Shown: piece by piece, positions 4,272-16,258 of the stretch
Numbering within the stretch: the stretch's first letter is position 1
How the letters are laid out: every line of letters begins with the position of its first letter
IMG/VR virus record: IMGVR_UViG_3300029951_000090
Coordinates: 1-29,523 of that record
Reading direction: 5' to 3' (one strand)
Length of the DNA stretch: 29,523 bases
Source of the DNA: a virus
Notes under the pieces: generated by a model
Told to the model about the DNA's origin: nothing
The model's input: the letters and a program-made list of their open reading frames with translations, nothing else
Databases searched by the model: none
Made by a program: the position numbers and the translations under genes

Positions 4272-4300
4272 GACCCCAAATGCCCTTGGGCAAGGCGCTC

Positions 4301-4335
4301 GTGCCGCTGTGAAGCGCCACCATCCCATGCAGGAA
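4301..4335 (+). promoter_or_regulatory. GUGA-tetraloop leader hairpin, copy 1, plus ribosome binding site
   Basis: The stem GTG-c-CGCT (4301-4308) pairs with AGCG-c-CAC (4313-4320), with a C-C mismatch, around the GNRA-type loop GTGA (4309-4312). It is followed by TCCC and the ribosome binding site AGGAA (4331-4335). It matches copy 2 at 6133-6167 at 29 of 35 positions without gaps. Two of the six differences (third and eighteenth bases) are paired with each other and keep the stem (G-C against C-G). A competing stem GGCGCT (4294-4299) with AGCGCC (4313-4318) is also possible. The function is unknown; it lies 25 bases before ATG 4346. Confidence 0.6.
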
Positions 4336-4345
4336 GCCTAACTTT

Positions 4346-4648
4346 ATGGCAACACAGACCCTCCAAGAGCCAAGTTTCGCCGGCATTACGACCAGCGTTC
4401 CGTCCGCGAACACAGACACGGTTATCCTTGCCGCGTCAGTCAATGGCCAGCGCAAGGGGTTCACCGTCTTTAACGACAGCACGCAAATCCTTTATCTGTT
4501 GCTGGCGAATGCGGTTTCTTCGTCCTCGAACTACACCGTCCAGATGGTGGCCGGGTCTTATTACGAATCGCCGTTTGCCTATTCAGGGGTCGTCAAGGGG
4601 ATTTGGGCATCGGCAAATGGCAATGCACGGGTCGAGGAATTCGTCTGA
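4346..4648 (+). CDS. small virion/fibre-associated beta protein
   Basis: A 100-residue protein whose sequence follows a widespread phage structural family: a Thr/Ser/Ala-rich N-terminus, then RKGFTVFNDSTQILYLLL, then YTVQMVAGSYYESPFAYSGVVKGIWASANGNARVEEF. In relatives this fold is a small all-beta module encoded beside fibres and decoration proteins, so an exposed head or fibre role is likely. The start ATG 4346 follows AGGAA and the structured leader. The stop overlaps the next gene's ATG (TGATG). No signal peptide is seen. The exact virion position is inferred from context only. Confidence 0.8.
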   Translation: MATQTLQEPSFAGITTSVPSANTDTVILAASVNGQRKGFTVFNDSTQILYLLLANAVSSSSNYTVQMVAGSYYESPFAYSGVVKGIWASANGNARVEEFV

Positions 4649-5665: not shown

Positions 5666-6082
5666 ATGGCCTTTTCGATATTTAAAGCCTTCAAATCCAC
5701 TGTCACACCTCCCAACTACAGGGACTTGTCGCCTACCGATAACTGGCTGACAGACCCACAGACCGGGGCAATCATCGGCGTTGAAGCTCCGACCGGCACT
5801 GGCCCAGACGCGCGGTTCACCCCGGTTGACATCACGGCGGCCCAGTTGGCGGTCCCGACTGCGGCGATGCTCGCTGACCTGGACGCGACCTATCGGCTGA
5901 ACGTCGCGCCGTATCCGCGGTATTATTCCGACGGTGCGCAGCTCGCGCCCTTTGGGGCCAGTGAAACCGAGGTTGTGATCCCGCCCGGCTTCAACACCAT
6001 TTTCTACGCCCCGCTCACAATTGCGACCCCGGAAGAATTGCTTGTCCAGGGCCAAGTCCGAGTCATCGCTTACACACCGTAA
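5666..6082 (+). CDS. virion-associated hypothetical protein
   Basis: A 138-residue protein behind AAGGAAA, ATG 5666. It contains YRDLSPTDNWLTDPQTGAIIGVEAPTG, a phrase that recalls the N-terminal anchor region of several phage fibre and surface proteins. The second half (PRYYSDGAQLAPFGASETEVVIPPGFNTIFYAPLTI) looks like a beta-sandwich. It is encoded between two fibre-like proteins, so it is probably a connector, decoration or receptor-binding accessory; this is inference. The TAA stop (6080-6082) is the first part of a strong hairpin (see 6080-6123). Confidence 0.7.
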   Translation: MAFSIFKAFKSTVTPPNYRDLSPTDNWLTDPQTGAIIGVEAPTGTGPDARFTPVDITAAQLAVPTAAMLADLDATYRLNVAPYPRYYSDGAQLAPFGASETEVVIPPGFNTIFYAPLTIATPEELLVQGQVRVIAYTP

Positions 6083-6123
6083 TCTCCGCATAAACTGCGG
6101 GGATTACCCGCGCCAATCCCCGC
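6080..6123 (+). promoter_or_regulatory. competing hairpins overlapping a stop codon
   Basis: Three segments are present. Segment 1 (6080-6089, which includes the TAA stop) pairs with segment 2 (6097-6106) over 10 base pairs with one T-G wobble. Segment 2 (6097-6105) also pairs perfectly with segment 3 (6115-6123) over 9 base pairs. The two hairpins cannot form together. No T run follows either, so neither is a standard terminator. A ribosome finishing the upstream gene would cover segment 1 and favour the second hairpin. It lies just before leader copy 2. Confidence 0.6.
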
Positions 6124-6132
6124 ACCCATCTA

Positions 6133-6167
6133 GTCCCGCTGTGAAGCGCGACGGTCCCTTGAAGGAA
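6133..6167 (+). promoter_or_regulatory. GUGA-tetraloop leader hairpin, copy 2, plus ribosome binding site
   Basis: GTC-c-CGCT (6133-6140) pairs with AGCG-c-GAC (6145-6152) around the loop GTGA (6141-6144). Then come TCCC and AAGGAA, ending 7 bases before ATG 6175. It aligns without gaps to copy 1 at 4301-4335, with a compensatory pair swap. It is the leader of the glycine-rich fibre gene, 22 bases from hairpin end to start codon. Confidence 0.6.
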
Positions 6168-8936: not shown

Positions 8937-9010
8937 GCGCTGCTGGGTCATTGGCTGATCACCAGCCTTCCAAGCTGAGAAAGTGTGTTCGATTCACACG
9001 CGGCGCTCCA
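8937..9010 (+). tRNA. tRNA-Gly (anticodon TCC) with encoded CCA
   Basis: A full cloverleaf folds by hand. The acceptor stem GCGCTGC (8937-8943) pairs with GCGGCGC (9000-9006) over seven pairs with one T-G. The D stem is GGTC/GATC with GG in the loop. The anticodon arm is CCAGC (8962-8966), loop CTTCCAA, GCTGA (8974-8978), with one C-A mismatch at the top. The variable loop has four bases. The T stem GTGTG/CACAC surrounds the loop TTCGATT. The discriminator is T9007, followed by CCA (9008-9010). The anticodon TCC (8969-8971) reads GGA and GGG. The anticodon arm is that of typical bacterial tRNA-Gly(UCC). It lies between late genes, on the same strand, and was not part of any reading frame. Confidence 0.9.
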
Positions 9011-9093: not shown

Positions 9094-9525
9094 ATGAAAA
9101 TGTCAGTGCAACAAGTTCTGGATTCCACTGTCACGCTCACCAACATCATCAATCGTGCGCCTGCCATGCCGATCAAGGGCAAGTACCGCCTCGCGCGTAT
9201 GCACGCGAAGCTGTTGCCGGAGTTCAATCTGGCGAACGCCAAGCGCGACGAAATGATTATGGCCTACGACTTTCATCCCATGGAGACAGTTTCGGCTGCG
9301 ACCAAGGATGAACCGATGGCCATTGAAGTCCGCACCAGCGATAAGTTCGCCGTGCCGCCGGATAAGGTTGCCGAGTTCGCTTCGGCCTGGGCCGAGATCG
9401 GTTCCGAGGAAATTGACGTGGACGTGACACCCATTCCGCTGGCGCAGCTCGACATGGGCGACGATGCCAATGGGGCGATTGAAGCGCATGAGTTGATCGT
9501 CCTTGGCGATCTGGTGGCGGAGTAA
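9094..9525 (+). CDS. conserved phage hypothetical protein
   Basis: A 143-residue protein with a strong ribosome site, GGAGGACCACAC. The N-terminal helix (VQQVLDSTVTLTNIINRAPAMPIKGKYRLARMHAKLLPEFNLANAKRDEMI) and the C-terminal half (KFAVPPDKVAEFASAWAEIGSEEIDVDVTPIPLAQLD) match the style of small proteins found in many phages. In those, a helical bundle is followed by EEI-x-V-x-x-x-PI-x-L; DUF1617-like proteins look similar from memory. Their role is not known to me. It is soluble and acidic. It opens the portal segment after the tRNA. Confidence 0.75.
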   Translation: MKMSVQQVLDSTVTLTNIINRAPAMPIKGKYRLARMHAKLLPEFNLANAKRDEMIMAYDFHPMETVSAATKDEPMAIEVRTSDKFAVPPDKVAEFASAWAEIGSEEIDVDVTPIPLAQLDMGDDANGAIEAHELIVLGDLVAE

Positions 9526-13918: not shown

Positions 13919-13931
13919 CCAACCCAATGCA

Positions 13932-13946
13932 GCGTCGTGACGACGC
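13932..13946 (+). promoter_or_regulatory. short hairpin in the leader of the major capsid gene
   Basis: GCGTCG (13932-13937) pairs with CGACGC (13941-13946) around the three-base loop TGA. The downstream bases TCTCAT and GAAAGAAA stand where the GUGA leaders have TCCCAT and the ribosome site. Hairpin end to ATG 13971 is 24 bases, in the same range as the three GUGA leaders. It may be a diverged fourth member, or an mRNA-stabilising stem for a gene that needs high expression. Confidence 0.4.
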
Positions 13947-13970
13947 CGCGTCTCATCGAAAGAAAATATC

Positions 13971-15076: not shown

Positions 15077-15592
15077 ATGGCCTTTTCCGACACAATGATT
15101 CGATGGCTTGAAGGCATCGCGGCGAGCAAGGATCAATACACGCTCAAGAAATTGCTTGAGCCGATCTTTGATCGGATGTCGTCTGCAACGCTTACGACGC
15201 CTGCGCTCGTTATCAGTGCTGGCGGCGCGACTACGGCTAAGACTGGGTCTGCTGACACCTATGGCGTTGCCAACGGTGTTATCTGGAAAGTGCCCGCAAG
15301 CACTACGCTTCCGGCGCTGACCGGCATCAACAACACAGCAGCGTTCTTCAACGTCGCCTGTTTCTTTGTTGATCAGAACTCCGTTGTCACGGTTGCGGGC
15401 GGCGTGCAGGCGTCAACGCTTGCTGGCGTTGTATTCCCGCAGTTCCCGAAGCAGAAGGCATTGCTAGGTTTTCTCATCATCACCTATGCAAGCGCCTTTA
15501 CTGGCGGAACTACGCCACTCGATACGGCGACAACCGTCTACGTCAGCTCCAACGAGGCGTTCGATCCGGCGTGCCTCCTCGGCACCAACTAA
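15077..15592 (+). CDS. capsid decoration-like protein 1
   Basis: A 171-residue protein right after the major capsid gene with a perfect AAAGGAGG site. After a short helical N-terminus (DTMIRWLEGIAASKDQYTLKKLLEPIFDRM) it is all-beta. It has the pattern of a widespread phage virion family: AAFFNVACFFVDQNSVVTVAGG, then PQFPKQKALLGFLIITYAS-x-FTGGTTPLDTATTVYV. The same sequence plan recurs in the next gene, so the two probably share a fold and form trimers or pentamers on the capsid surface. This role is inferred from position and family style. Confidence 0.75.
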   Translation: MAFSDTMIRWLEGIAASKDQYTLKKLLEPIFDRMSSATLTTPALVISAGGATTAKTGSADTYGVANGVIWKVPASTTLPALTGINNTAAFFNVACFFVDQNSVVTVAGGVQASTLAGVVFPQFPKQKALLGFLIITYASAFTGGTTPLDTATTVYVSSNEAFDPACLLGTN

Positions 15593-15621: not shown

Positions 15622-16173
15622 ATGGACAATCTGCAAGCAATCCCGCTGACCGCCAATCTCACCAAGAATAGCTTGGCGGCCGGCACCACCACCACCATCA
15701 GCACCACGGGCACCGCGACCTATGCCATCAAAGGCAAGCTCTACACCAAGACCGCGATCACCAATGGCGCGACCCCGACGACCGATTACACCACCGGCAA
15801 TGCGTTCGTACCGATCCCGGTGCCGCTGTCGTCTCCGAACCTTCCGGGCGTGCCGAACGCTGCGGCTGGATACGGTAGCGTCTATACCGTTGGCTTCGAT
15901 AGCTCCGGCAACCTGAAAGTCATTCAGGGCCAGATCACCGCTCTCGACGGCAACGGCAACTTCATCACGGCGCCGCAGTTTGGTGGGCTTGGTCCGCTCG
16001 GTAGCGGCTCGACAGACAACAACTTTGCTCCAATTGGCTACATCCTTGTGCAGCTTGGCTCGACAGCGGTTGCGACCTGGACGTTCGGGACGAATAACCT
16101 CTCTGGGGTCAGTGGCGTGACCTACACGTTCGTGGACATTTCCACTCTGCCGGATCGGCCGCAAGTCTCGTAA
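15622..16173 (+). CDS. capsid decoration-like protein 2 (related to the gene before)
   Basis: A 183-residue all-beta protein. Residues about 80-180 repeat the plan of the preceding gene: YTVGFDSSGNLKVIQGQ (against FFVDQNSVVTVAGG), then FAPIGYILVQLGSTAVATWTFGTNNLSGVSGVTYTFVD (against ALLGFLIITYAS-x-FTGGTTPLDTATTVYV). Thus both are likely paralogues that decorate the shell or stand on vertices. The N-terminus is rich in Thr. The gene ends before a strong terminator. The start ATG 15622 lies behind GAAAGAGA. An alternative reading as a fibre base cannot be excluded. Confidence 0.72.
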   Translation: MDNLQAIPLTANLTKNSLAAGTTTTISTTGTATYAIKGKLYTKTAITNGATPTTDYTTGNAFVPIPVPLSSPNLPGVPNAAAGYGSVYTVGFDSSGNLKVIQGQITALDGNGNFITAPQFGGLGPLGSGSTDNNFAPIGYILVQLGSTAVATWTFGTNNLSGVSGVTYTFVDISTLPDRPQVS

Positions 16174-16221: not shown

Positions 16222-16258
16222 CGCGCAGTGATGCGCGCCAACCCCATGATGGAGGACC
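16222..16258 (+). promoter_or_regulatory. GUGA-tetraloop leader hairpin, copy 3, plus ribosome binding site
   Basis: CGCGCA (16222-16227) pairs with TGCGCG (16232-16237) around GTGA (16228-16231). The core CGC-A-GTGA-T-GCG is that of copies 1 and 2 (CGC-T-GTGA-A-GCG) with the closing pair swapped from T-A to A-T. The CCCATG that follows matches copy 1. Then comes GGAGGACCAC (16251-16260) before GTG 16265. Only about two bases separate it from the tail of the terminator, leaving no room for a promoter in between. Confidence 0.55.

Follow-up and report, generated by a model that had tools for sequence, protein, structure and literature searches.

A family of structured mRNA leaders appears to be built into the ribosome-binding sites (RBS) of virion genes in a metagenomic virus and in unrelated dsDNA phages, where it probably acts on translation initiation. 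This level of action is favored because of the position of the element, its near-fixed distance to the Shine-Dalgarno sequence (SD), and the link of an upstream hairpin, P0, to the RBS. Late-gene control in dsDNA phages is usually ascribed to promoters, sigma factors, and antitermination. In this case, a single small RNA design precedes genes for capsid, tail tube, sheath, portal, scaffold, and decoration proteins in otherwise dissimilar phages.

The window, i.e., the whole 29,523-base stretch of an IMG/VR virus contig that was analyzed, contains four good copies of a hairpin termed HpI and one divergent candidate. Scores in bits refer to the covariance model R1, built from ten copies (window copies 1 to 4 and six major capsid protein (MCP) leaders of relatives), and to the refined model R2. 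The features, all on the + strand, are as follows.

4281-4297, + strand: P0 of copy 1, the upstream hairpin, with GCC 4282-4284, bulged C 4285, and UU 4286-4287 in the 5' half, loop GGGC 4288-4291, then AA 4292-4293 and GGC 4294-4296, and a U.G pair 4281-4297
4301-4320, + strand: HpI of copy 1, GUG-C-CGCU-[GUGA]-AGCG-C-CAC, C.C mismatch at pair 4; R1 39.1 bits, R2 29.9 bits
4332-4346, + strand: RBS of copy 1, with SD GGA 4332-4334, GCC 4336-4338 (proposed partner of the P0 loop), and the start codon at 4346
6133-6152, + strand: HpI of copy 2, GUC-C-CGCU-[GUGA]-AGCG-C-GAC; SD GGA 6164-6166, start codon 6175; R1 42.8 bits, R2 37.4 bits
9049-9070, + strand: candidate copy 5 (divergent), CCCG-C-CACC-[AUCC]-GGUG-A-CGGG, upstream of the gene at 9094; from a structural scan
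13929-13949, + strand: HpI of copy 4, GC-A-GCGUC-[GUGAC]-GACGC-C-GC, A.C mismatch at pair 3, before the MCP gene (start 13971); R1 43.8 bits, R2 42.1 bits
16220-16239, + strand: HpI of copy 3, CGCGCA-[GUGA]-UGCGCG at 16222-16237 with the outer pairs open; SD GGA 16251-16253, GTG start 16265; R1 39.3 bits, R2 36.5 bits

An earlier note on this DNA had described copies 1 to 3, and its gap-free alignment of 4301-4335 with 6133-6167 (29 of 35 positions identical) was reproduced. The core CGC-N-GTGA-N-GCG (CGCNGTGANGCG) occurs exactly three times in the window, at 4305, 6137, and 16224, always on the + strand, and the three hairpins indeed end 22-27 nt upstream of the genes that start at 4346, 6175, and 16265. 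The three copies stand, but a fourth, before the MCP gene, had been missed; it was exposed by comparison of the MCP leaders of relatives, and its leader is also present in L002, L003, L012, L017, L052, and L122. The downstream genes had been called virion genes. They do lie in a structural module, which includes the large terminase, a connector (phrog_332), and an MCP (phrog_1357) related to those of N4-like phages, but the products of 4346, 6175, and 16265 are without a PHROG match, and the only identified virion gene after a window copy is the MCP gene behind copy 4. The leader of copy 3 is kept before orthologues of the 16265 gene in four relatives (L002, L006, L052, L122). Candidate copy 5 is uncertain: a clear copy precedes the L122 orthologue of this gene (L122:5914), and the window sequence itself is not detected by R2.

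HpI comprises eight pair positions enclosing a loop of 4-5 nt. Among 113 parsed loops, 88 are GNRA or GNRAN (41 and 47) and 17 are GGAY. The GUGA tetraloop initially proposed is correct as a GNRA-like loop but not as strictly GUGA. The conserved unit is also larger than the hairpin first described: it has a 1x1 mismatch, a bulged-C hairpin on its upstream side, and a proposed RBS pairing. Wherever the outer pairs are closed, HpI has one 1x1 mismatch in every copy and is never a perfect helix; the site is pair 3 (mostly A.C, also C.C, C.U, A.A, and C.A) or pair 4 (C.C), in a tally where most copies were chosen by a pattern that fixes A.C. Covariation was evaluated in a set of 26 copies chosen without that constraint, 25 of them outside the collection-scan pattern described below. 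In this set 86.1% of HpI paired cells were complementary, compared with 68.0 +/- 1.7 in shuffled and 24-58% in slid controls, and double changes numbered 38 against 11.1 +/- 3.0 when shuffled, with 0 of 500 shuffles as high. Judged by these controls rather than by R-scape, covariation of HpI is far above background. HpI is not always the minimum-energy RNAfold structure of the extended leader, as in copy 1. The competing pairing of 4294-4299 with 4313-4318 noted previously is present in the sequence.

The covariation also bears on the idea that the leaders are recombination linkers at gene boundaries, with DNA identity conserved for the exchange of virion modules. One short sequence at gene boundaries of many unrelated phages is what such linkers would look like; however, letters vary while pairs stay, contrary to homology-driven linkers, and copies occur at start codons and not at every boundary. 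Because of the covariation in particular, this explanation is disfavored and seems very improbable.

Downstream of HpI come n-UCCC and then the SD, standing where the U run of an intrinsic terminator would be, and HpI does not qualify as one. Measured to the end of GGA, HpI and the SD are 14-16 nt apart in the pattern matches listed, the only range that the pattern permits, and 14 nt apart in the ten seed copies, which were chosen independently of the pattern.

P0 adjoins HpI upstream in many copies. It consists of three or more pairs that vary, a bulged C that does not, UU/AA, and an NGGC loop. The stem before copy 1 that the earlier note had called switch-like is there (4281-4297) but is really this conserved second hairpin. 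In 32 distinct cases, the bulged C and the three pairs beside it were found in 32 of 32, the pairs being of several types, and the three pairs fail to form once the bulge is left out of the alignment. P0 is also associated with the RBS. Among the matches listed, GCC lies within 3 nt after GGA in 38 of 40 copies with the P0 core and in 17 of 84 others (Fisher p=3e-16); counted by gene cluster, the figures are 17/2 against 12/53. An independent scan, in which the GGCAA of P0 and a C.C-type HpI were fixed while pair 2 could be any letters (N,N) and pair 3 any S,S, returned 56 stretches representing 40 distinct copies. Pair 2 was complementary in 40 of 40 (GC 27, CG 12, AT 1), as was pair 3 (CG 32, GC 8); P0 formed around the bulged C in 36 of 40 and without the bulge in 0 of 40; GCC followed the SD in 35 of 39; and the start codon of an open frame lay downstream in all 40. 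In these comparisons HpI and P0 together have the character of a covarying structured RNA.

The association suggests that GGC of the P0 loop and GCC after the SD could form a loop-RBS pseudoknot. The contact is only 3-4 bp and hardly varies, with no compensatory change at those pairs, and the case for it rests on co-occurrence because GGC and GCC are nearly invariant. In the window, copy 1 has both P0 and GCC, and copies 2-4 have neither; copies with and without P0 could be two separate lineages. A weak pairing of UCC with the SD GGA becomes UCU/AGA in copy 4, a possible compensatory change seen directly in this one case, with the SD being conserved for ordinary reasons as well.

Searches of relatives and of wider collections bore out the proposal of a family of cis-acting RNA elements, through the covariance model, the placement before virion genes, and the covariation. 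In 1.4 Mb of relatives, every significant R1 match was on the coding strand, immediately ahead of a gene start; non-seed copies scored 23-41 bits and included orthologues of the 16265 gene (L002, L006, L052, L122) and of the 9094 gene (L122), and no minus-strand match exceeded 17.7 bits. The collection-scan pattern, GCAGCGYYN{4,5}RRCGCCGCN{2,4}CCCNNNGANGGA, matched at least 120 stretches in IMG/VR. Among the pattern matches listed, a start codon lies 1-12 nt downstream of nearly all of 124 sites, and the proteins encoded downstream fall into 40 clusters without recognizable similarity to one another; whole-contig matches are also a few nt before start codons, almost without exception. Chance occurrence was rejected, as the identical hairpin with an altered tail gave 0 matches in the whole viral collection. 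Carriers have 1-9 copies each, with strong matches confined to one strand.

Bacterial genomes were searched with the exact pattern because an RNA-model search there, with 150 of up to ~3,000 candidates scored, was too shallow; 399 Pseudomonadota genomes gave 0 matches. One copy (47.7 bits) was found ahead of a tail-fibre-like gene in a plasmid region of Sinorhizobium medicae that resembles a prophage; this alphaproteobacterium is the one host shown. A consensus query of 50,697 phage records revealed no near-consensus copy in named phages, bar one 18-nt match, and the element is absent from phiKM1 and from two rhizobial plasmid regions related to carrier L250. Two carriers, L344 and L346 (IMGVR_UViG_2935901341_000001 and IMGVR_UViG_2509276021_000001), have identifiers that are not metagenome-like and are perhaps isolate genomes; a megablast search with L346 gave no named match. 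Another (L277, G430:30918-30978) has a tandem pair of HpI hairpins ahead of one gene. The 48-kb carrier G437 (L284-L286) has about nine copies. In several of them a GGCATACCT motif recurs 10-25 nt ahead of HpI in place of P0; this motif could be a P0 variant or a promoter.

PHROG matching of 40 downstream proteins assigned virion functions to those with a match, with one tail-associated exception, and left several products unannotated. MCPs of nine PHROGs (phrog_10, 283, 212, 1005, 1357, 9953, 29, 334, and 264) are represented, together with major tail or tube proteins (phrog 1407, 158, 185), sheath (165), baseplate (6), and minor tail (290) proteins, portals (phrog 146, 156), a connector (332), a scaffold (3927), a decoration protein (49), other head proteins, and an esterase-like protein (phrog_8480).

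With the window MCP related to those of N4-like phages, and with too little space behind the terminator at copy 3 to fit a sigma70 promoter, the hairpins might be taken for promoters in single-stranded DNA, used by an N4-type virion RNA polymerase just before each late gene. However, carriers are mostly unrelated to N4-like phages, and a link to GCC after the SD is not expected of a promoter hairpin. Additionally, PF00940 was not found in 16 related records, a search in which the control was likewise silent and the window record is incomplete, and a 3145-aa protein of the relative MW202426.1 had no polymerase match. Promoters of this kind are scarcely credible here. The 3145-aa protein (L132:14587-24024) is a polyvalent protein with LPD38, LPD23, and a weak ART match.

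Action through mRNA stability or processing, with the SD merely at a fixed distance, is unlikely but has more in its favor. P0 and HpI would cap the 5' end of late mRNAs after cleavage or initiation a short way upstream, a protection like that of the ompA 5' UTR. The hairpins are stable and GC-rich, the genes that follow often encode high-copy proteins (MCP and tail tube, for example), and copy 3 stands directly after a terminator-like stem, as previously reported, as do copies in L223, L147, and L213. MCP copies, in contrast, lie ~10-20 nt past the preceding stop codon with no terminator, and the RBS itself is implicated by the near-fixed HpI-SD distance, by conservation of the UCCC, and by the association of GCC with P0 across HpI.

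The same terminator-like stems, and the GNRA or GNRAN loops that predominate in HpI and resemble those of boxB, are consistent with an antitermination site (GNRA or GNRNA-type loop) that brings a factor to the polymerase and so carries late transcription past terminators between virion genes. The element is, however, locked to start codons and SD and not to promoters or terminators, is present in up to nine copies per phage, and has its P0 tied to the RBS. No N-like or small gene is common to the 21 carriers, though such genes evolve too fast for this comparison. Antitermination is therefore considered improbable.

For translation initiation, the favored reading, the mechanism would involve pairing of the P0 GGC with GCC after the SD and of the conserved UCC with the SD GGA, such that the RBS would be held in a fold and opened by the ribosome or another factor. 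In this manner the element would gate or boost the start of virion protein translation in late infection. The earlier note had named a phage protein as one possible binder, for which no support was found. In blastp clustering of 17 near-complete carrier contigs and relatives, no non-virion gene family was common to more than 3 of 21 carriers, and only terminase, portal, and similar families reached 4-6 of 21; a common phage RNA-binding protein was rejected as partner for lack of a candidate family, with the caveat that a small, fast-evolving one could escape the clustering. At the sensitivity of this gene-family comparison, it is unlikely that the phages encode a partner in common. Because the RNA is present in unrelated phages that have no accessory gene in common, the host ribosome or a host RNA-binding factor, and not a phage repressor, would be the likelier partner.

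A more specific form of this mechanism, tentatively put forward, is that the leaders constitute a new cis-regulatory RNA class of unrelated dsDNA phages, a common virion translation switch consisting of a host-released two-hairpin RBS pseudoknot. A host factor or ribosome state would free the RBS at the late stage, and diverse phages would then be exploiting a single mechanism of the host for the timing or amplification of virion synthesis. If translation control is correct in general, it would represent a general post-transcriptional layer of virion gene expression, the leader would serve to mark virion genes in the sequences of metagenomic phages, where many of the proteins encoded downstream are unannotated, and it would point to an as yet unrecognized RNA-binding activity of the host.

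Structured phage leaders are a known kind of element. The coat-protein operators of MS2, Q-beta, and PP7 are hairpins with a bulge or mismatch at a phage gene start, comparable with the bulged P0 (bulged base, two pairs, tetraloop) or the mismatched HpI and with the translation role proposed; the leaders here, however, occur in dsDNA phages before many different virion genes, have two hairpins and a proposed RBS pseudoknot, and no common binding protein was found. Pairing of an upstream loop with the RBS, as proposed here, recalls the SAM-II, SAM/SAH, and preQ1-II riboswitches and the T4 gene 32 leader, but metabolic genes are not involved and Rfam has no match. The lambda/P22 boxB (nut sites) has a similar short stem and GNRA-fold tetra- or pentaloop, whereas HpI has an obligatory 1x1 mismatch, a near-fixed SD distance, many copies, and a location at translation starts. 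The T7 gene 10 leader and the ompA 5' UTR raise expression of an abundant protein, but are single leaders and not a covarying family across unrelated phages. With Rfam 15 at the gathering threshold, the window yields only a tRNA (8937-9007; RF00005, 45.8 bits), located within the structural module and immediately preceding candidate copy 5. No family was matched in 20 loci of carriers or relatives, and a permissive search of four loci gave nothing at the element. The open literature searched, a comparison that a 2017 survey of 224 candidate RNAs lies outside, has no earlier description of the leader. As far as testable, a covarying leader common to virion genes of unrelated dsDNA phages is new.

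In sister phages that lack the element, the MCP leader contains another hairpin, with a loop complementary to the SD; the mean complementary run is 6.0 nt compared with 3.5 for shuffled SDs (4 of 1000 permutations), which suggests that control of MCP translation via loop-RBS pairing may recur. This second leader type, with the hairpin ACCGNCG-CCCUGUGA-CGNCGGU, occurs at L022:9928-10000 and about 20 related loci (among them L010, L015, L026, L029-L037, L042, L048, L057, L061, L065, and L073), is noncoding, and has no Rfam match. The complementarity of its loop to the SD involves UCACAGG, or in L032 CCUUGUG/CACAAGG, and GGUUUC..GAAACC between loop and SD possibly allows two alternative folds. 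Coding conservation was rejected as a cause of either MCP-leader type, as the upstream scaffold-like gene stops before the hairpins in both. A third MCP-leader type (CCGGCCAUUGACCGGCGGCGAUGAGGAC...) is found in L041-L047, another subgroup of the same phage family.

Other potential structures were observed in the window. Just upstream of copy 2 are three mutually exclusive 10-nt segments, AATCTCCGCA (6081-6090), TGCGGGGATT (6096-6105), and AATCCCCGCA (6115-6124), and within this 6081-6124 region the middle segment is able to pair with either neighbor. At the start at 15077, the SD is sequestered in a tiny hairpin, CTCCT-GAA-AGGAG, within the preceding 30 bases, and at the start at 15622 in a tiny TCT-GAA-AGA hairpin that is compensatory relative to that at 15077.
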